Positions 5,993-19,414 are shown, counted from the first letter of the stretch. The stretch is 40,114 nucleotides of DNA from Candidatus Thorarchaeota archaeon (GCA_013388835.1 JACAEL010000002.1:1-40114), one strand, 5' to 3'. The notes: a model not told the origin generated them from the letters alone. Made by a program: numbers and translations.

Positions 5993-7501
5993 TCACATAC
6001 TCGTGACGAAGGGCTTCCCTTCTCGCCGACAGAGTATCTGAATCACATTACGTCCGGTGAATGCGCACGCTGGTACTCCGCCGCCGGGGAGCACCCATTG
6101 TCCGGCCATGTAGAAGCAATTCAGTCCCGGGAGTGTCCGGGGTATCTGAGTCATGAGCGACTCTCTTGTCATCAGCCAGCCCATCGGCGAGCCCCTGTCG
6201 TTGAGAGTGTATCGCCACGTTGTGAACGGGGTGGCCACATCGACCATATCAACCTGAGCGGATATCCCTGGGTATACTTCCTCGAGACGCGCGATGGTCT
6301 CCCTTGCCAGCCGGGCCTTCTCTCCATCGTACCCGGTCTGGTCCTCCCTGAGCTTCTTCCAGTGGTCCCAGTCTGTCTCAAACATTACCTGAATCACGGT
6401 CTTGCAGGTGGGCGCGAACTCGTCGCTGTAGTTGAGCAACCTCAGGGGAAGGAAGCGACATGAGCGGTCTCCGATGACCATAGGGTCCTTCATGCAGAAC
6501 ACGATGAACGGCGGTGTTGAAACGAACTGCCGGTCAACCCCCAAACTCACCATCACTATCGGATCATACCGCCTCCAACGCTCATATCGATTCACAGTCC
6601 TGTCATCAACGTACTTCCCACCAAGGAGCTGGAAGATTGTGGAGTATCCATCAGCAGCAGAGACCACAATGTCCGCCCTGTGTTCGGTCCCATCAGCAAG
6701 TGTGACCCCGACTGCACTGTCATTCTCGACGATGACTCGAGTGACAGTGGACCTGTAAATGATGCGTCCGCCAAGCGCCTCATATCTTCGGACGATTGGT
6801 TCTATGAAGCCCTGACAGCCGCACTTCAAGAGACCTAGCTGACCTGCGGCTACGGAGGCAAGTATCATTATCACGAACCAGACTGGTGCTTCCGGTCCGA
6901 AGATGCTCTCAAGTACCATCCGGAGGAACGGACTACGGAGTCTTCTTGCAAACTCCCGGGTGGACTCTGCATACTTCCCAATCAGGAACTTCAGCAGCCC
7001 TCGCATCTCCCACATCTCCTTCAACGAGCCGAAGCGAGTCCGAAGCTCAGGAGGCACACCGCTCATTCCGAGGTCTGTCAAGAATGGAGCGTTTGTCATC
7101 CATCGGACCTGCTTGAGAAGGAGCTGAATCTCCTTCGCATCCTCGGGAGCAGCTGCAATCAGGTCCCTCTCAAGTCTGTCAAGGTCTGATGTGAGATCTA
7201 TGCACTTGTCGCCTGTCTCATCAACAACCCTCATATAACTCGTCATGTCCGTGAGCGTGTCCGGCTCTGCAGTCCCAAGTTCCCGGTACACACGGTTGAT
7301 GGCAGATCCGTTTCGATGCCCGATGAGAAAGTGAATGCCCCCGTCGATTAGGTAGTCTTTCCTTCGCCACGCAGCAGCCAGTCCCCCCGCTTTGGAGTGA
7401 TGCTCAAAGATGACACTTCTGTATCCGTTCATCTGCGCATAGCACCCAGTGGCAAGTCCTGCGATTCCTGCACCAATGATTATCATCGACTTCCCGCTCA
7501 C
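5993..7501 (-). CDS. Phytoene desaturase-like FAD-dependent oxidoreductase
   Basis: About 502 residues, typical of the CrtI/CrtN/amine-oxidase-like flavoprotein family. The N-terminus has the dinucleotide-binding motif IIGAGIAGLATG followed by a Glu-ended strand (VIFEHH) and AGGLAAAW; the C-terminal FAD segment reads FYMAGQWVLPGGGVPACAFTGRNV. The middle includes GCQGFIEPIVRRYEALGGRI, the GG-loop region expected for carotenoid or prenyl desaturase/isomerase enzymes. The substrate is not readable: carotenoid, another isoprenoid chain or a retinoid-like compound are possible. Start GTG at 7501 overlaps the stop of the upstream regulator as GTGA; ATG 7486 would remove five residues. Co-transcribed with that regulator. 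Confidence 0.88.
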   Translation of the reverse strand: MSGKSMIIIGAGIAGLATGCYAQMNGYRSVIFEHHSKAGGLAAAWRRKDYLIDGGIHFLIGHRNGSAINRVYRELGTAEPDTLTDMTSYMRVVDETGDKCIDLTSDLDRLERDLIAAAPEDAKEIQLLLKQVRWMTNAPFLTDLGMSGVPPELRTRFGSLKEMWEMRGLLKFLIGKYAESTREFARRLRSPFLRMVLESIFGPEAPVWFVIMILASVAAGQLGLLKCGCQGFIEPIVRRYEALGGRIIYRSTVTRVIVENDSAVGVTLADGTEHRADIVVSAADGYSTIFQLLGGKYVDDRTVNRYERWRRYDPIVMVSLGVDRQFVSTPPFIVFCMKDPMVIGDRSCRFLPLRLLNYSDEFAPTCKTVIQVMFETDWDHWKKLREDQTGYDGEKARLARETIARLEEVYPGISAQVDMVDVATPFTTWRYTLNDRGSPMGWLMTRESLMTQIPRTLPGLNCFYMAGQWVLPGGGVPACAFTGRNVIQILCRREGKPFVTSM

Positions 7502-7998
7502 GTCACCTGGACCCCCTGCTTGCCGCTTAGCGAGGACAATGACTGCCCAATGATCGTGTCCCAGACCTCCGCAATCTCAATCTCGGCTGCAATCGCTCTG
7601 CTCAGGCTTCTGTCCTTCCCCTTGTTCTGTACAGTCAAGGTCCGAAGCCGTTCAACGAACTGCCTGTTCCCCTGTAGTATCTGCTGCAGCATCGATGCTA
7701 TCAAGCTTGATGATGACATGAATCTGTAGCCATAACCCGTTTTTCGAGAGCCGGTCTTCTCAGCAACCCCGTAGGACTCGAGTACCTTGAGGGCTCGATT
7801 GACGGAGGGCACAGAAGTGGCATACTTGGGCTCCGGCAGTATCTCCCTTAGCTTGTGGGATATCATCTGCTGCGACAATTCGCCCGACTCGAGCGCCAGT
7901 AGCGCCTCGACGTATCCATAGTACTCCGGGAAACCATAGCTTCTGTACGCTCTGCCTATAGTCATCAGGAACTCCCTTCGCAGTTCGGTTTCTTCCAT
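7498..7998 (-). CDS. GbsR/MarR-like winged-helix transcriptional regulator
   Basis: 166 residues. The N-terminal part (FLMTIGRAYRSYGFPEYYGYVEALLAL) and the following helix-turn-helix with recognition segment VPSVNRALKVLESYGVAEKTG, then a short wing (RKTGYGYRF), match the GbsR/MarR fold. The C-terminal ~60 residues are helical and likely form the dimer interface. Its stop overlaps the start of the flavoenzyme gene by 4 nt. The promoter upstream has a TATA box with a perfect palindrome directly beside it, which suggests autoregulation. The effector is unknown. GAGG about 8 nt before the ATG is a plausible ribosome-binding site. Confidence 0.82.
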   Translation of the reverse strand: MEETELRREFLMTIGRAYRSYGFPEYYGYVEALLALESGELSQQMISHKLREILPEPKYATSVPSVNRALKVLESYGVAEKTGSRKTGYGYRFMSSSSLIASMLQQILQGNRQFVERLRTLTVQNKGKDRSLSRAIAAEIEIAEVWDTIIGQSLSSLSGKQGVQVT

Positions 7999-8030
7999 TT
8001 GCCCGTCCTCACGATGTACTCATGTTTCTG

Positions 8031-8056
8031 ATTATAAGAATTTCGGAAGTCCGAAA
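8031..8056 (-). promoter_or_regulatory. TATA box with adjacent perfect palindrome (probable operator)
   Basis: Read on the minus strand, TTATAAT (8031-8037) lies ~35 nt before the regulator ATG at 7998. Immediately upstream is the inverted repeat TTTCGGA-2 nt-TCCGAAA (8041-8056 on the plus strand), covering the position where archaeal TFB contacts its BRE. Binding there by the winged-helix protein encoded downstream would block initiation. The palindrome is seen; the binding partner is inferred. Confidence 0.65.
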
Positions 8057-8271
8057 GACCGAAGTTGGGGTCGCCGGTATCATCTGGCAGAATACGCTCA
8101 TGCCATGGCTTCAAAGACTGGAGCAGTTCATATCAGGGATACTGACCAGCAAAGCCCACGTTCAGTGGGGGTGATTGCTTCTACAAGATATGCCCCTGTG
8201 CTGGGCCGGCCGGAATCCTCGGCTCCGCCATGTTGAATAGGCTTTGAGTGTCAGCGTGCTAGTGACCGTCG

Positions 8272-8721
8272 GTGAGCATTGAGATAAGACGAATCGGCTG
8301 TGTTCGCGTGTCTGATGGCCCTGTGTACTCAGTCCAGTTGGAACCCGAGTACTGGGACGCCGTTCTCGGGCTGGAGCAGTTCTCACACATCATTGTCCTA
8401 TGGTGGATCTCCGGCTGTGACACGGAAGCTGCACGCAAGACCCTGAGAGTCCATCCGAGAACGCCTGAAGGTGCTGCAACTCCTCTGTCAGGGGTGTTTG
8501 CGACAAGGTCCCCAAAGAGACCCAACCCGATAGGGCTTAGCGTTGTGAGACTCATCGACATCGTGGAGTCGACCAAGTCTATCGTAGTGGACCGGATAGA
8601 TGCTTTTGAAGGCTCGCCGGTGATAGATATCAAGCCGTACATGCCATCATCCGACCGTGTCCATTGTCCAAGGACTCCCGAGTGGGCATCAGGTCTGCCG
8701 CACGCCCACGGTTCTCCGTAG
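8272..8721 (+). CDS. trmO: tRNA (N6-threonylcarbamoyladenosine37-N6)-methyltransferase family (TrmO/TsaA/YaeB)
   Basis: 149 residues, close to the single-domain archaeal members of the family. The hallmark GVFATRSPKRPNPIGLSVVRL is split across residues ~85-105, followed by the DAFEGSPVIDIKPY segment that lines the SAM pocket. N-terminal IGCVRV and LEQFSHIIVLWW are also typical. Known members use SAM to methylate t6A37 of some tRNAs. Starts with GTG at 8272 (GGTGAGC context). No C-terminal domain as in the E. coli enzyme. Neighbouring genes do not add information. Confidence 0.9.
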   Translation: MSIEIRRIGCVRVSDGPVYSVQLEPEYWDAVLGLEQFSHIIVLWWISGCDTEAARKTLRVHPRTPEGAATPLSGVFATRSPKRPNPIGLSVVRLIDIVESTKSIVVDRIDAFEGSPVIDIKPYMPSSDRVHCPRTPEWASGLPHAHGSP

Positions 8722-8786
8722 TTCCTCGACATTCATCAAAGGGCTTATGTGAAAGTGCGACGCGCGTGGAGATAGGCCTGGCAAAT

Positions 8787-9701
8787 ATGCAAAGCACGCT
8801 CTTCGATGACTTTGTGAACTTCATCGTGACTCTGCTTACTCCCTTCGGGATCGGTGACCGAGTAATCGCGACAATGATTGCGCTCATCCCCTTCTTGGCA
8901 GTGGTCTATGTAGTGTACCTGGTGGTCATCAGGAGCATTCACCTGTCTTTTCGTAGACTCGGTGTGCCAATACAGGCTCGGACCGGAGTGGTATTCGTCG
9001 TCCGCCTGTTCTTCTTCGCGATTGCCCTTGTCACTGTGATGACTGCGACCAGCCAGCCCGGAGGCGGTGCTGCTCTTGCCCTGACTACATTGATAGGTAC
9101 TGCCATCGGTCTGGCCTTCTCAAGAGCATTGTCGAATCTTGTGAGCGGCCTCTATGTGTTTGCTTCAAGGCCCTTCCGGGTCGGAGACTACGTGCGCATA
9201 GGTGACACCGAAGGGCTAGTCTTGGAGATCACGCTGAACTACACCCGGATACTTCTTCCGGACCACACCAGGCGGTTCGTCCCCAACAGCAGAGTGGTTG
9301 ATGAGGGTGTCGTGAACTACAGAGTCCGCGTCGATGACTACTGTGCGGAGAAGGGAATTGCGTGCTTCCAGACGGGTCAGGAACATGATGATCGGCACTG
9401 GGACGACGCACTTGACAAACTGAGATTCCTTGCGAAGGGCGATGAGGTGTATCGTCATGTGTTCGACATTGATACGGGTCGGGATGATAACGCGGAGGCG
9501 CTGGCCAAGGCGTTCGATGAGGTCTGCGACAAGTGGCAGTCTGTCTTTCTTGAACGACCCGAGTTCTTCATGACTCACTGGGCCAGTGGTATCGTCTACA
9601 GGTTCGCCTACATCGTGAGGAATCCCCGGTCAATACTCTCCGAGGGGATGCAGTTCCGGTTCGAGGTCGCTCAGGCGGTGTTGAGGGCAAGGGCTCTCTG
9701 A
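8787..9701 (+). CDS. MscS-family mechanosensitive channel
   Basis: About 304 residues. Three membrane segments (about residues 20-50, 65-90 and 95-120 in this numbering) lead to the pore-lining TM3/β-domain signature: ALTTLIGTAIGLAFSRALSNLVSGLYVFASRPFRVGDYVRIGDTEGLV, then NYTRILLPDHTRRFVPNSRV. The C-terminal half fits the cytoplasmic vestibule. It releases ions and small solutes on hypo-osmotic shock. The frame is open from 8664, but that start overlaps trmO; ATG 8787 or GTG 8766 (GGAGATA context) precede the first hydrophobic segment. Converges with corA 9 nt away. Confidence 0.9.
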   Translation: MQSTLFDDFVNFIVTLLTPFGIGDRVIATMIALIPFLAVVYVVYLVVIRSIHLSFRRLGVPIQARTGVVFVVRLFFFAIALVTVMTATSQPGGGAALALTTLIGTAIGLAFSRALSNLVSGLYVFASRPFRVGDYVRIGDTEGLVLEITLNYTRILLPDHTRRFVPNSRVVDEGVVNYRVRVDDYCAEKGIACFQTGQEHDDRHWDDALDKLRFLAKGDEVYRHVFDIDTGRDDNAEALAKAFDEVCDKWQSVFLERPEFFMTHWASGIVYRFAYIVRNPRSILSEGMQFRFEVAQAVLRARAL

Positions 9702-9709
9702 GTCAGACA

Positions 9710-10738
9710 CTAGACCCATCCACGCTTTCGGAATAGTACGAGCAGGGCGATTCCTAACGAGAGCATCAGGGCGAGAAGAATCGGGTAGCTGTAGGGCCAA
9801 TGGAGTTCAGGCATATACTCGAAGTTCATACCATAGATGCTGGCGAGAAGCGTCATAGGAATGAATATCGTGGAGATGACTGTGAGGACCTTCATCACCT
9901 CATTGAGTCTGTTGCTCACCGCTGAGAGATAGATGTCCATGAGTCCGCTGATGGCCTCTCGGTATATCTCCAACATGTCGACGGTCTCGATTATGTTGCC
10001 ATACAGGTCCCGAAAGTATAGGCTGGAGGACTCCTTGACGAGTGGGATCTCTGCATGGTTGAGTTTCAGGACCGCTTCTCTGAGTGGCCAGACGTGACGA
10101 CGCATGTCCATGACCGCGCGCTTCAGTTCGTATACGCGGCCAAGCACCTCCTGCGAGGCGGCTGTCTCCACGATTGTATCCTCAAGCAGCTCTATCTCGT
10201 CTCCCAGACTCTCAAGCGCCACAAAGTAACCATCCACGATGAGGTCAAGAATCGTGTGGGCCAGCATGTCGGATGACACTGTCTTGGCAGACGGTCGAGC
10301 ACCAGCCATTCTCCGGGCAATCAACTCAAAGACCTGAGGTTCAACCTCCTCGAATGAGACTACTGTTCGGTCCAAGATTAGTACACTGACTTGCTCCGAC
10401 CTGATGAGTTCTGGTGTGCCCTTGGCGACGGCAAACGCCCGCAGCACGACGTATACCCCATTGTCTAGAATATCAAGCTTCGGTCTCTGGTCTCGTCTCA
10501 CGATGTCTTCCACTATCAGAGGGTGAATCTGGAATGGCTGACACACATTCTCAACCATACTCGCATCATGAACACCTGTGACGTGAATCCACCTGACGCG
10601 GACTTCTGGTGGCGGCGGGACGCATTCCTGCGGCTGAGCCTCTCCCGCTCTCCTCGACCCGTCTTCGAAGTAGTCAAGGATCTGAATGCGCGTTCTCGTG
10701 GTCGTCTCATCGGTTGACGCAGGGTCGCTCCTGTTCAT
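9710..10738 (-). CDS. corA: CorA-family magnesium/divalent cation channel
   Basis: 342 residues, normal length. N-terminal soluble α/β domain, a long helical stalk, and two C-terminal membrane helices. The selectivity signature YGMNF is at residues 302-306, followed by a short loop and the second helix ending in the basic tail FRKRGWV. STIFIPMTLLASI before GMN is the typical end of TM1. Pentameric inner-membrane Mg2+ uptake channel. The ATG at 10738 has a GGAG about 7 nt upstream. Converges with the mscS-type gene. Confidence 0.93.
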   Translation of the reverse strand: MNRSDPASTDETTTRTRIQILDYFEDGSRRAGEAQPQECVPPPPEVRVRWIHVTGVHDASMVENVCQPFQIHPLIVEDIVRRDQRPKLDILDNGVYVVLRAFAVAKGTPELIRSEQVSVLILDRTVVSFEEVEPQVFELIARRMAGARPSAKTVSSDMLAHTILDLIVDGYFVALESLGDEIELLEDTIVETAASQEVLGRVYELKRAVMDMRRHVWPLREAVLKLNHAEIPLVKESSSLYFRDLYGNIIETVDMLEIYREAISGLMDIYLSAVSNRLNEVMKVLTVISTIFIPMTLLASIYGMNFEYMPELHWPYSYPILLALMLSLGIALLVLFRKRGWV

Positions 10739-16034: not shown

Positions 16035-17048
16035 ATGGGTGGATATGGAAGCGACTACTCGTACAGCACATCTGATGCGGTTGTGAAGAAGACCGCAAGA
16101 CAGTACAATGTGGATCAGGGACGAGAGTACAGTCAGACCACCGCGGTGATGCCTCCTCCTCGAGGCAGAGTACTGGTCACCAAGGCGAAGCTTCCTGTCG
16201 TTGTCTCAATCGATGTCACAGGCTCGATGAGGGAGCTCCCAGCTCTGATATTCGAGAAGCTGTGCATCCTGTACAATGAGGCGGTCTACTTTCTCCCAGA
16301 TGAACTGAAGAATTCCTTTGAGATCTCCTTTGTCGCAATGGGCGATGCTTACTCGGATAAGCATCCCCTCCAAGTCACAGACTTTGACAAGGGCAGGAAT
16401 CTTGACCAGAATATCCGGAGTCTGTATGCAGAGGGCGGAGGCGGTGGGCAGTACCGCGAGTCATACGAGCTGGTGGCATACTTCTACTCAGCATGTTGTG
16501 AGATGCCAAATGCCATGAAGACTGTTCGTCCGCTCTTCTTCTTCATTGGTGACGAGGGCTATTACAGCAAGGTGAACCGCTTCCTGATCAGGGAACTGAT
16601 TGGCAATGAACCCACAACGGACCTGATTGCCCTGGACGTATTCGAAGAGCTGAAGAAGCGCTTCGACGTCTACATGCTCAGAGTCCCTTACAAGGCCATG
16701 GGAGAAGTGGATAAAGAGATTCACGCATCATGGGAGGAGGCGTTGGGCAAGGACCGCGTGATTGTCATGCAGACTCCCCGCAGAGTAGTGGACATCATCT
16801 TGGGTCTGATAGCCGCAAGCGTGGAACGGTTTGATGCATACAAGGAGAGAATCGAGGTTCGTCAGACTCCCGAACAGGTGGACCAGGTCTTCTCGAGTCT
16901 GGACGGCCTGAGACTACGAGAACGCGCTTATGTCTACAAGCTGCAGGCCCTCAAGTGTCCCTCGTGCGGTGCGAGTATTCAGGAGATGCCCTCGCCGGAC
17001 CATCCCGTGAAGTGCCAGTACTGCCAGGTGCTCCTGGTGAGGATGTAA
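16035..17048 (+). CDS. von Willebrand factor A domain protein with C-terminal zinc ribbon
   Basis: 337 residues. After a ~50-residue polar N-terminus, the vWA core begins with VVVSIDVTGSM (MIDAS residues D60, T62 and S64). It continues through SFVAMGDA, a glycine-rich loop followed by YRESYELVAYFYSA, and FFFIGDEGYY, giving the usual alternating strands and helices of a metal-dependent adhesion site. The last ~30 residues form a zinc ribbon, CPSCGAS and CQYC. Such proteins act as scaffolds that hold partners through a metal ion. Its TAA stop shares one base with the ATG of the thymidylate synthase-like gene, so it leads a four-gene unit. The ATG at 16035 is the only good start. Confidence 0.85.
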   Translation: MGGYGSDYSYSTSDAVVKKTARQYNVDQGREYSQTTAVMPPPRGRVLVTKAKLPVVVSIDVTGSMRELPALIFEKLCILYNEAVYFLPDELKNSFEISFVAMGDAYSDKHPLQVTDFDKGRNLDQNIRSLYAEGGGGGQYRESYELVAYFYSACCEMPNAMKTVRPLFFFIGDEGYYSKVNRFLIRELIGNEPTTDLIALDVFEELKKRFDVYMLRVPYKAMGEVDKEIHASWEEALGKDRVIVMQTPRRVVDIILGLIAASVERFDAYKERIEVRQTPEQVDQVFSSLDGLRLRERAYVYKLQALKCPSCGASIQEMPSPDHPVKCQYCQVLLVRM

Positions 17049-17680
17049 TGCTGACGGTTGAAGGCAAGACCATTGGAGAGTGCTGGAGGCAGGCCGTCCT
17101 TCGTATCATCCATGATGGCAGGAGGACCTGGGATGGCGATTTGCAACTCAGGGAGCTCCTGCACGTCACGCTTGCGATTGAGCATCCAGACGAGAATGAC
17201 CCCATGGCGCTGCGTCCCAGTCAGTTGGCCATGCGCGAGTGGATGCGTTCCAACTTCGAACATGTGGGACGCATCAAAGAACTCAGGGACTCGTGGAGCT
17301 ATGCGTGGCGGCTGCACAGCTTTCAGGGCCATGACCAGCTTCGGTGGGTGGTGGAATGTCTGACGAAAAAGCCGGAGTCCAAGTCGGTCACCATCACCAT
17401 GTTGCAGGCGGCTGGCACAGAGGATTACATCCCGTGTGTGAGTCTACTGGACTTCAAGCTCCGTGACGGGGTTCTCATTCTGACCGTCACCTGCAGGAGC
17501 CTTGACTTTGGACAGAAGGCCCTTCACAACCTCTGTAGCTTGTCACACGTTGCCCGCAGTGTGTGTGAACAGCTGTCCTGCAAGACCCACCGCCTCCATG
17601 TCCTCGTCATCTCGGCTCATGTGTACGAACGGGATGTCGCATCACTCGTATCGGATCTGGAGGTGTCGCCCTTTGAATGA
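17048..17680 (+). CDS. Archaeal-type thymidylate synthase homologue
   Basis: 210 residues from ATG 17048. The full catalytic set of ThyA-family enzymes is present with exactly the E. coli spacing: C130 (IPC), R150-S151-x-D153 (CRSLD), N161 (HNL) and H191-x-Y193 (SAHVY), equivalent to C146, R166, S167, D169, N177, H207 and Y209. Asn at the N177 position favours a uracil over a cytosine substrate. The shape GECWRQAVLRII ... LLDFKLRDGVL ... ISAHVYERD resembles the short TysY-type enzymes of methanogens. It could be the housekeeping dTMP synthase or a pyrimidine C5-modifying enzyme; its coupling to a QueC-like and a pyruvate-kinase-like gene favours a specialised role. Longer frame from 16955 overlaps the upstream gene and is rejected. 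Confidence 0.83.
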   Translation: MLTVEGKTIGECWRQAVLRIIHDGRRTWDGDLQLRELLHVTLAIEHPDENDPMALRPSQLAMREWMRSNFEHVGRIKELRDSWSYAWRLHSFQGHDQLRWVVECLTKKPESKSVTITMLQAAGTEDYIPCVSLLDFKLRDGVLILTVTCRSLDFGQKALHNLCSLSHVARSVCEQLSCKTHRLHVLVISAHVYERDVASLVSDLEVSPFE

Positions 17681-18464
17681 GGAACACTGGTTTCGCGTTC
17701 TTCGTAACGGCGCCCACCACTATGATGAGAATCTAAGCCGACTCAAGGAGCTGCTTGTGGCGAACAGAGGATACGTCTGGGAGAGACCGGTGGGGGAAGA
17801 TGTGATCCTGCTCCTCTCTGGGGGAATGGACTCCGTCGTGCTTGCAGACGTCCTGCTCAGAGAGTGGGACTGCCGTGTCGTGCTGATGCACTTCCTACGC
17901 GGTGCAAGAAGTCAGAAGTGGGAAGAAGCCTCCTTTGACTACTTCTGTGACTTCTATCGCAACAGGTATCCGAAGCAAGTGCTTGACTGTGTGAAGGTGT
18001 CCCTGGAGGTACCGCTACGACTGCATCGAGAGTTCATGGACTCGGCCCGTCAGAAGGTCATGGGCTTGCCGCTGCGAAATGCAACCATGTGGTTCAACGC
18101 AATGGCGCAGGCAGTGTTTCTGAGCGGAAAGTGGGGGCGGACCATCAGGACGGTCGTCACAGGTTCGGTAGGAGAGGACGACACGAGCCCTGAGTCGGGA
18201 CTCCTTGCCGTGCTGGCCGCGACCGTTGCCACATGCTGCTGTCTGGGGATGTGGACCTATCAGGTGAGTGCGCCATTCATTGATGGTACACTGGGCCGCA
18301 AGTGGACGAAGGTCGATGTCATCGAGTACTCTGAGAACCACTCCATCCCTCTCGACCGAACGCGCTCGTGTTTTGAGGACAACAGCCAGCCGTGCGGCAA
18401 GTGCCTCGGTTGCACAAACAGAGACAAGGCTTTCAGTCTGTACGCTCAGAGGAGTGCAACGTGA
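17673..18464 (+). CDS. QueC-like ATP-dependent PP-loop enzyme
   Basis: 263 residues. N-terminal ~40 residues precede the PP-loop LLLSGGMDSVVLA (SGGMDS at 49-54). GLPLRNATMWFNAMAQA (131-147) matches the QueC substrate segment, and four cysteines C233, C241, C244 and C247 (CGKCLGCTNRDKAF) form the QueC zinc site with near-identical spacing. QueC makes preQ0 from 7-carboxy-7-deazaguanine with ATP and ammonia; QueC-like proteins also occur in conflict systems (QatC of QatABCD, Cap9 of type IV CBASS). Start TTG 17673 is 7 nt after a strong GGAGGTG (17659-17665) and overlaps the thymidylate synthase-like gene by 8 nt. The frame open from 17502 upstream is antidomain and rejected. No QueD, QueE or TGT gene nearby, so a non-queuosine role is plausible. 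Confidence 0.87.
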   Translation: MNEEHWFRVLRNGAHHYDENLSRLKELLVANRGYVWERPVGEDVILLLSGGMDSVVLADVLLREWDCRVVLMHFLRGARSQKWEEASFDYFCDFYRNRYPKQVLDCVKVSLEVPLRLHREFMDSARQKVMGLPLRNATMWFNAMAQAVFLSGKWGRTIRTVVTGSVGEDDTSPESGLLAVLAATVATCCCLGMWTYQVSAPFIDGTLGRKWTKVDVIEYSENHSIPLDRTRSCFEDNSQPCGKCLGCTNRDKAFSLYAQRSAT

Positions 18465-19414
18465 ACAACCGGATTGGGCTCATGCTCTCTGCAAGACCAG
18501 ACATGAAGTACTCGAGCCAAATACTGAGGTCTCCGCTTGTTCTGGGGGCCCGCATGAACACTGGCGCACCAGTCACTGGTTCGAAGGTCTCTGCAGTGCG
18601 TGGCTTCCGCCACATGCTAGAGCCGAAACAGGCATGGATTGACTTGAAGTGCAGAGAGCTGCGTCTGGTGGAGACCGCCACCATTCCCGGGGACAGACTT
18701 GAACTGAACCACTCGATATCTGTCAGGACTCCAACGGCGGTCTACTACAATGACGGTGCAGGCGTGCTCGTGGTAGACCGAGTGGAAGAAGGGAGGTTCC
18801 TCGTCATCCGACCACCGAAGATGCAGACAGAGGGCGGCTCACTCACACTGGGCAAGGGGGCTTCCCTGAACATCCCGGACAACACACTCCACGTGGATGG
18901 CTTTCTCACTGAGAGTGACATCGAGTACATTGAGGCCTGCGTTGAGGCTGACCTTCACAACTACTTGCTATCTTTCGTCGAGTCGCGAGCAGACTTGAAG
19001 CAGCTCAGGGACTTGGACCCCCTGGCCAACGTGATACTCAAGGTCGAGTCGAAGAGGGGACTCCGTTTCGTCGCTGAGGACTTTGATCCGGTGAGGGACA
19101 GAGCAACTCTGCTGCTCGCAAGAGGCGACCTGTTTGTAGAGCTCGACTACGTTCATCAGATACTTGGTGCCGCAAGAGACCTGATTGCAAGAGACCCCAA
19201 CGCAATCGCCGCATCGCGGCTTCTACTCTCCTTCATGAGGGAAGACTCAATGCCCAGCTGTGCGGATGTGTTTGACGTCGGGTATCTGCTTGAGATTGGG
19301 TACCGGCAGTTCCTCCTCGGCGACGAAGTGTGCACGGATGAGACCACCCTGTCAAGTGTCATTGGGTTCTTCTCTGCATTGGAGAAAGACTACTTCTCAG
19401 CGCGAAAGGCGTAG
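18461..19414 (+). CDS. Pyruvate kinase-like protein lacking the C-terminal domain
   Basis: 317 residues against ~470 for pyruvate kinase. Alignment by eye covers the A and B domains. ARMN (30-33) sits at the ARLNFSHG position. IDLKCRELR (60-68) matches LDTKGPEIR. A B-domain with GG-LTLGKGASLNIPD (about 125-139) follows, then LLSFVESRADLKQLR. K194-V-E196 matches the catalytic/metal AKIE, ARGDL (220-224) retains the metal Asp, and FMREDSMPSCADVFDV resembles the SM..PRPTRAE.SDV helix. The allosteric C-domain is absent. GTG start overlaps the QueC-like stop as GTGA, with GAGGAG 6 nt upstream. True pyruvate kinase activity, phosphorylation of a modified nucleoside diphosphate, or another enolpyruvyl/phosphoryl reaction are open. 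Confidence 0.75.
   Translation: MNNRIGLMLSARPDMKYSSQILRSPLVLGARMNTGAPVTGSKVSAVRGFRHMLEPKQAWIDLKCRELRLVETATIPGDRLELNHSISVRTPTAVYYNDGAGVLVVDRVEEGRFLVIRPPKMQTEGGSLTLGKGASLNIPDNTLHVDGFLTESDIEYIEACVEADLHNYLLSFVESRADLKQLRDLDPLANVILKVESKRGLRFVAEDFDPVRDRATLLLARGDLFVELDYVHQILGAARDLIARDPNAIAASRLLLSFMREDSMPSCADVFDVGYLLEIGYRQFLLGDEVCTDETTLSSVIGFFSALEKDYFSARKA

Follow-up and report, generated by a model that had tools for sequence, protein, structure and literature searches.

A QueC-like ligase in a conserved four-gene cluster of Asgard archaea as a candidate for nucleobase attachment to a vWA protein

Deazaguanylation is a recently described and rare protein modification, so far known for one immune system, with a second under suspicion. 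The partner proteins on which protein ligases of the QueC family act carry a long disordered tail and, at the N-terminus, an essential glycine; in CBASS and Qat, the N-terminus of these partners is conserved and disordered and begins with glycine (PMC13279940). Base recognition by the type IV CBASS enzyme Cap9 has a signature consisting of YxDC and Y/FxQ(x)5E (PMC13329287), and its equivalents of Y131 and D133 stack on and read the deazaguanine (PMC13279940); in E. coli QueC, the residues Y35, R99, Y131 and Y189 are essential (PMC13329287). Here, we describe a cluster of four genes from Candidatus Thorarchaeota archaeon (GCA_013388835.1) that encodes a vWA/zinc-ribbon protein, a thymidylate synthase (TS)-like enzyme, a QueC-like ATP-dependent ligase and a pyruvate kinase (PK)-like protein. 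It lies on the plus strand at positions 16035-19414 of a stretch of 40,114 nucleotides (nt; JACAEL010000002.1:1-40114), which in its entirety is called the window. We tentatively propose that the QueC-like ligase couples the N-terminus of the vWA protein to a carboxylated base.

The four genes overlap on the same strand, and a re-reading of the sequence gave the reading frames and junctions as a preliminary description of this DNA had them. The vWA gene (16035-17048, 337 amino acids), whose product we propose as substrate and hub, is joined through TAATG to the gene of the TS-like enzyme (17048-17680, 210 amino acids). The QueC-like gene (17673-18464, 263 amino acids) begins with TTG and overlaps the TS-like gene by 8 nt, with a Shine-Dalgarno-like GGAGGTG (17659-17665) within the TS-like gene, 7 nt upstream of this start. 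It is joined through GTGA to the PK-like gene (18461-19414, 317 amino acids, GTG start), whose product consists of the barrel plus lid. All three enzymes match their Pfam families above cut-off (Thymidylat_synt, PF00303, 45.8 bits; QueC, PF06508, 51 bits vs a gathering threshold of 22; PK barrel, PF00224, 47.4 bits). None reaches the curated equivalog cut-off for the canonical members of its family, and each is thus a paralog.

The vWA alignment found relatives in the genome contigs, where a single-sequence QueC scan gave none. Among 228 genomes of the phylum, close vWA homologs (57-60% identity over nearly the whole length) occur in five others, and no match was found in other members of the window's own genome family. 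Loci L023-L026, from three further families of the phylum, carry all four genes together, with identities to the window's proteins of 57-60% (vWA), 46-48% (QueC), 39-46% (TS) and 40-44% (PK). Where the loci are uncut (four of the five genomes), the three enzyme genes adjoin the vWA gene, the exception in layout being L024, whose PK gene lies about 2 kb off on the opposite strand. In G207, where the contigs with vWA are cut, the QueC-like and PK-like genes stand together on a third contig. The carriers are Freyarchaeota, Sigynarchaeota/Lokiarchaeota and Helarchaeota, plus a nanoarchaeon (L036) that has the same set with a second vWA gene and a Ham1-type nucleotide pyrophosphatase. The four families, whose co-occurrence the preliminary description had left to be searched, are thus linked in L023-L026 and in the nanoarchaeon. 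It had also named chance adjacency of housekeeping genes as the outcome that would overturn its view. This is ruled out by the conserved linkage and by the presence of further genes for TS and PK: apart from the cluster, the window's genome, which is 97.6% complete, carries a second TS (C74), which passes the archaeal TS equivalog TIGR03283 at 211.2 bits, and a second, full-length PK (C23). For QueC, the third enzyme for which another copy was sought, no canonical version was found in this genome. The evidence supports the four genes as a conserved functional unit.

The QueC-like protein belongs to the QueC superfamily by its SGGxDS and C(x)nCxxCxxC motifs. When the enzymes are compared with, and numbered by, the E. 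coli K-12 reference proteins, the QueC-like members keep the ATP site (SGGMDS), LPxRN, R99 and the zinc cysteines, one of which is missing in L036 only. In every member, however, Y35 is replaced by R, YPDC by [SNE]PE[SL] and Y189 by F, and Q37 is A or S, so that the Cap9-type signature Y/FxQ(x)5E is lost. Because these recognition residues are altered, the base may not be 7-carboxy-7-deazaguanine. The scores lie below the equivalog cut-offs of both canonical QueC (TIGR00364, 34.3 vs 150.3 bits) and QatC (NF041925, 19.2 vs 280 bits); QatC likewise has its equivalents of Y131 and D133 replaced. A PADLOC scan of the cluster matched only QueC/QatC models, and a scan of viral contigs found no QueC-like relatives. 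The best structural match of the predicted model (pLDDT 80.9) in the PDB is chain 9nto_B (E 1.4e-8, TM 0.83 by target length), with other chains far behind. This entry is the complex of Cap9 with CdnD bearing an N-terminal deazaguanine (NDG), and Cap9 was also the top match in a sequence-profile search of the PDB. That Cap9-CdnD-NDG comes first by both routes would, by analogy, support a ligation onto protein, and it bears out the earlier suggestion that this QueC-type enzyme was recruited as in Qat or type IV CBASS.

The locus thus has likenesses to several described systems. With Cap9 it shares the QueC-family fold, SGGxDS and the zinc cysteines, and the vWA protein resembles the Cap9 partner in its disordered tail and N-terminal glycine, onto which ligation would take place; by this analogy, the QueC-like protein may work like Cap9. 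Unlike type IV CBASS, however, the four genes include no CD-NTase or Cap10 (TGT-like), the YxDC residues are replaced, the ligase has a 40-residue N-terminal extension, the partner is a vWA protein, and TS-like and PK-like genes are added. QatBC is similar in that a QueC-family enzyme with a remodelled base site is found next to a partner whose long disordered tail bears an MG motif at the N-terminus, although vWA and QatB are likened by description only, and the cluster contains neither the QatA ATPase nor the QatD (TatD) nuclease of qatABCD and fails the QatC equivalog. Canonical QueC has PF06508 and the ATP and zinc sites in common with the QueC-like protein, which differs from it in failing TIGR00364 and in its replaced essential tyrosines. 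Hence, the system can be assigned neither to CBASS nor to Qat, nor is it preQ0 synthesis; its ligase falls within the QueC superfamily.

The vWA protein has no Pfam match and no sequence match in the PDB. In its AlphaFold model (pLDDT 82.0), the core is integrin/vWA-like and has vWA-domain structural neighbours, and the conserved motifs comprise the MIDAS motif DVTGSM, GDA, EGGGGG and GDE as well as a C-terminal zinc ribbon (CPSC...CQYC). Residues 1-30 (16035-16124) are predicted to be disordered (pLDDT<50), and residues 1-8, MGGYGSDY, are identical in seven of seven Asgard vWA proteins. This tail is the proposed acceptor, with Gly2 exposed if the methionine is removed. On account of the conserved disordered MGG tail, we consider the vWA protein a substrate rather than the scaffold that the preliminary description had seen in it.

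The vWA family extends well beyond the Asgard archaea. The vWA alignment matched 393 loci in genomes and 111 in viral sequences, from 80 of each of which four settings can be described. In setting A, the vWA gene stands with QueC-like, TS-like and PK-like genes. Setting B (Woesearchaeota and one Planctomycete) consists of NAD-salvage genes with a canonical NadE, which passes its equivalog (151-218 bits vs a cut-off of 63.65), together with a protein kinase and a PK-like protein; NMNAT, NAPRT, nicotinamidase and NAD kinase genes stand beside NadE. At L037, L038, L039-L043, L045, L049 and L050, vWA, kinase and PK-like genes lie inside complete NAD-salvage operons, and the vWA proteins begin with M-Y-x-W-G, not M-G. 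Setting C has PurA-like, PK-like and DnaJ-kinase genes, with a uridine-kinase-like gene in Clostridia, and setting D has PurA-like and DnaJ-kinase genes, with a NUDIX gene in Actinobacteria. Loci like setting D are frequent on large viral contigs, and a further viral group combines DnaJ-kinase, vWA and PK-like genes without PurA. The PurA-like proteins, of which those at L020 (8880-10169) and L052 (4732-6186) are examples adjoining the vWA gene, with about 100 more, keep the GTP P-loop. The aspartate-binding TTGR(x)RR is found in none of 106; at its position, 64 have mostly [WYF]QGx[FLW]R, and in 42 no motif was recognised by pattern. Without this motif, the amine donor has probably changed too. 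The four that were scored reached 115-224 bits, whereas the PurA cut-offs lie near 400 and E. coli PurA itself scores 697. Judged by sequence, settings A, C and D have in common that an enzyme normally joining an amine to a nucleobase has an altered acid or amine site.

The start of the vWA protein varies with these settings. Of the 141 vWA proteins whose start could be read, Met-Gly is found in all 112 whose loci have a QueC-like or PurA-like gene, and the loci of all 24 that lack the N-terminal glycine have neither. The remaining 5 have the glycine and no visible partner; for at least two of them (L033 and L034), the reason is a contig end within the vWA gene. This pattern, together with the loss of the aspartate motif in the PurA-like proteins as opposed to the canonical NadE of the group without glycine, supports a role of Gly2 in ligation. 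As an association between Gly2 and the ligases, it is suggestive, not significant.

The four genes would thus form one protein-modification system, a reading to which we give a probability of roughly 45%. It starts from what is observed: the conservation of the operon, the intact ATP, zinc and catalytic residues, the altered base-recognition residues and the conserved disordered tail with its N-terminal glycine. Removal of the methionine from the vWA protein would leave the glycine at the end of a flexible tail. The QueC-like enzyme would adenylate a carboxylated base with ATP and pass the activated base to this N-terminal amine as an amide, as Cap9 does with its CD-NTase partner. This base probably differs from ordinary 7-carboxy-7-deazaguanine or is recognised in another way, and the TS-like and PK-like proteins probably make, alter or read it. 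The vWA domain, with metal-dependent ligand binding, would be the output. The TS-like protein keeps the equivalents of the catalytic C146 and of R166, S167, D169, N177, H207 and Y209 in all aligned members of the system; R126/R127, which in TS bind phosphate across the dimer, are replaced by K/S, and the protein fails TIGR03283 (90.4 vs 174.55 bits). As a speculation, its substrate could be a pyrimidine base, or else a base that has already been attached to the protein. The PK-like protein fails the full-length PK equivalog (58 vs 306.4 bits); it keeps R32, N34, D66, K68, K220, E222 and D246, has S in place of T278, and lacks the C domain. No evidence was found for the earlier proposal that it raises or traps a phosphorylation state.

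Several points weigh against this reading. The ligation itself is something we infer, as are the identity of the base, the roles of the TS-like and PK-like proteins and the purpose of the system. The state of Gly2 changes only twice on the vWA tree, on which setting A nests within the clade of NadE/PK loci, and this leaves one informative independent co-change, too few for significance. The link between glycine and ligase could therefore stem from shared ancestry, and Gly2 may be conserved for another role. The tyrosine and aspartate of YPDC that read the base have become S/N/E and E, and Y35 has become R. The QueC model is based on six sequences. Finally, the window's genome has no evident source of 7-carboxy-7-deazaguanine, because no canonical QueC was found in it and its best candidate for QueE proved to be NrdG2.

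Among the other explanations, the TS-like, QueC-like and PK-like enzymes could produce a modified nucleobase or nucleotide in free form, used as a signal or antimetabolite, that the vWA protein binds or delivers. The intact catalytic cores of all three enzymes fit this idea, as do the Ham1-type pyrophosphatase in L036 and the uridine-kinase-like protein of setting C. We nevertheless regard it as rather unlikely, since it leaves the invariant disordered MGGYGSDY tail and the tracking of QueC/PurA partners by Gly2 unexplained, and since the nearest structure is a protein-modifying QueC. The preliminary description had allowed for both a modified nucleotide and a modified macromolecule; the latter, as protein, is favoured, and no evidence was found for the free nucleotide. 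Improbable, in our view, is a regulator of nucleotide supply, in which vWA and PK-like proteins (elsewhere with a kinase) would control nucleotide-making enzymes such that dTMP, AMP or NAD is raised under stress. The canonical NadE of setting B amid its NAD genes would suit such a role, whereas the QueC- and PurA-group enzymes score below the cut-offs of their equivalogs and no longer have certain substrate residues, and the genome has a TS and PK of its own. TS- and QueC-family enzymes take part in phage modified-base synthesis, and a modification of DNA or RNA bases by the TS-like and QueC-like enzymes may be imagined; it is very unlikely given that the cluster has no transglycosylase, QueD or QueE and that the same vWA hub is also paired with PurA-like proteins and NadE. 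That the QueC-like protein is the genome's preQ0 synthase for archaeosine, as a TGT gene (C71) beside a missing canonical QueC might suggest, was rejected as the most improbable of all, because no member retains the equivalents of Y35, Y131 and Y189, which E. coli QueC cannot do without (PMC13329287), while other carriers of the set also have a canonical QueC, the family is mostly without one (45 of 47 genomes) and QueE was not found in the window's genome, in keeping with the earlier dismissal of queuosine or archaeosine synthesis.

Some further observations concern the surroundings of these genes. TGT genes are present in nine of nine family-f1 genomes checked, and full-length canonical QueC is present in only 2 of 47 family genomes. 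The flanks of the window, whose genes were partly identified by eye, carry histidine biosynthesis, sugar and amino-acid enzymes, DNA polymerase IV and a histidine kinase, and no signs of a defence island were recognised in them. The two vWA genes of L036 are in tandem (6962-7894 and 8001-8927), both products beginning with MGGMSS. In L024 (Helarchaeota), a gene between the TS-like and QueC-like genes (9381-10463) matches E3 UFM1 ligase 1 (PF09743, 50 bits) plus PCI. A divergent version at L029 (6869-11124, genome G133) encodes a vWA protein (24% identity), a kinase, an NMN-adenylyltransferase-like and a PK-like protein, and L040 also encodes an ADP-ribosylglycohydrolase. Among the IMG/VR contigs L165-L244, many of them 80-512 kb and jumbo-phage-like, about 50-60 have PurA-like genes and a Met-Gly start, and about 20 have DnaJ-kinase and PK-like genes with vWA starts such as MSESADY. 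The literature found makes no mention of vWA on these large viral contigs, and no description of the vWA/PurA-like/DnaJ-kinase/PK module or of the four-gene operon was found in the open-access literature searched.

The bacterial and phage operons share with the archaeal cluster a homologous vWA hub with an M-Gly start, a nucleotide enzyme with an altered amine or acid site and, in the Clostridia group, a PK-like protein; they differ in having PurA-like enzymes in place of QueC and TS, a DnaJ-kinase of their own, and GTP instead of ATP chemistry. It is conceivable, if doubtful, that all of these belong to one class of nucleobase-to-protein conjugation, in which mutually unrelated nucleotide enzymes have been retooled to tag the N-terminal glycine of a single vWA family. 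In Asgard archaea and Nanoarchaeota, the enzyme would be QueC-like; in bacteria and jumbo phages, it would be PurA-like and would link the amine to C6 of the purine. A PK-like protein and a DnaJ-kinase would assist. If the proposed ligation is true, the joining of bases to proteins would extend to archaea, with a new acceptor, the vWA protein, and probably a new base. The locus also directs attention to a parallel family in bacteria and jumbo phages whose enzyme is based on adenylosuccinate synthetase (PurA). Across archaea, bacteria and giant phages, its relatives show the design again with different retooled nucleotide enzymes, and this suggests a route, not described before, by which nucleobases are attached to proteins.

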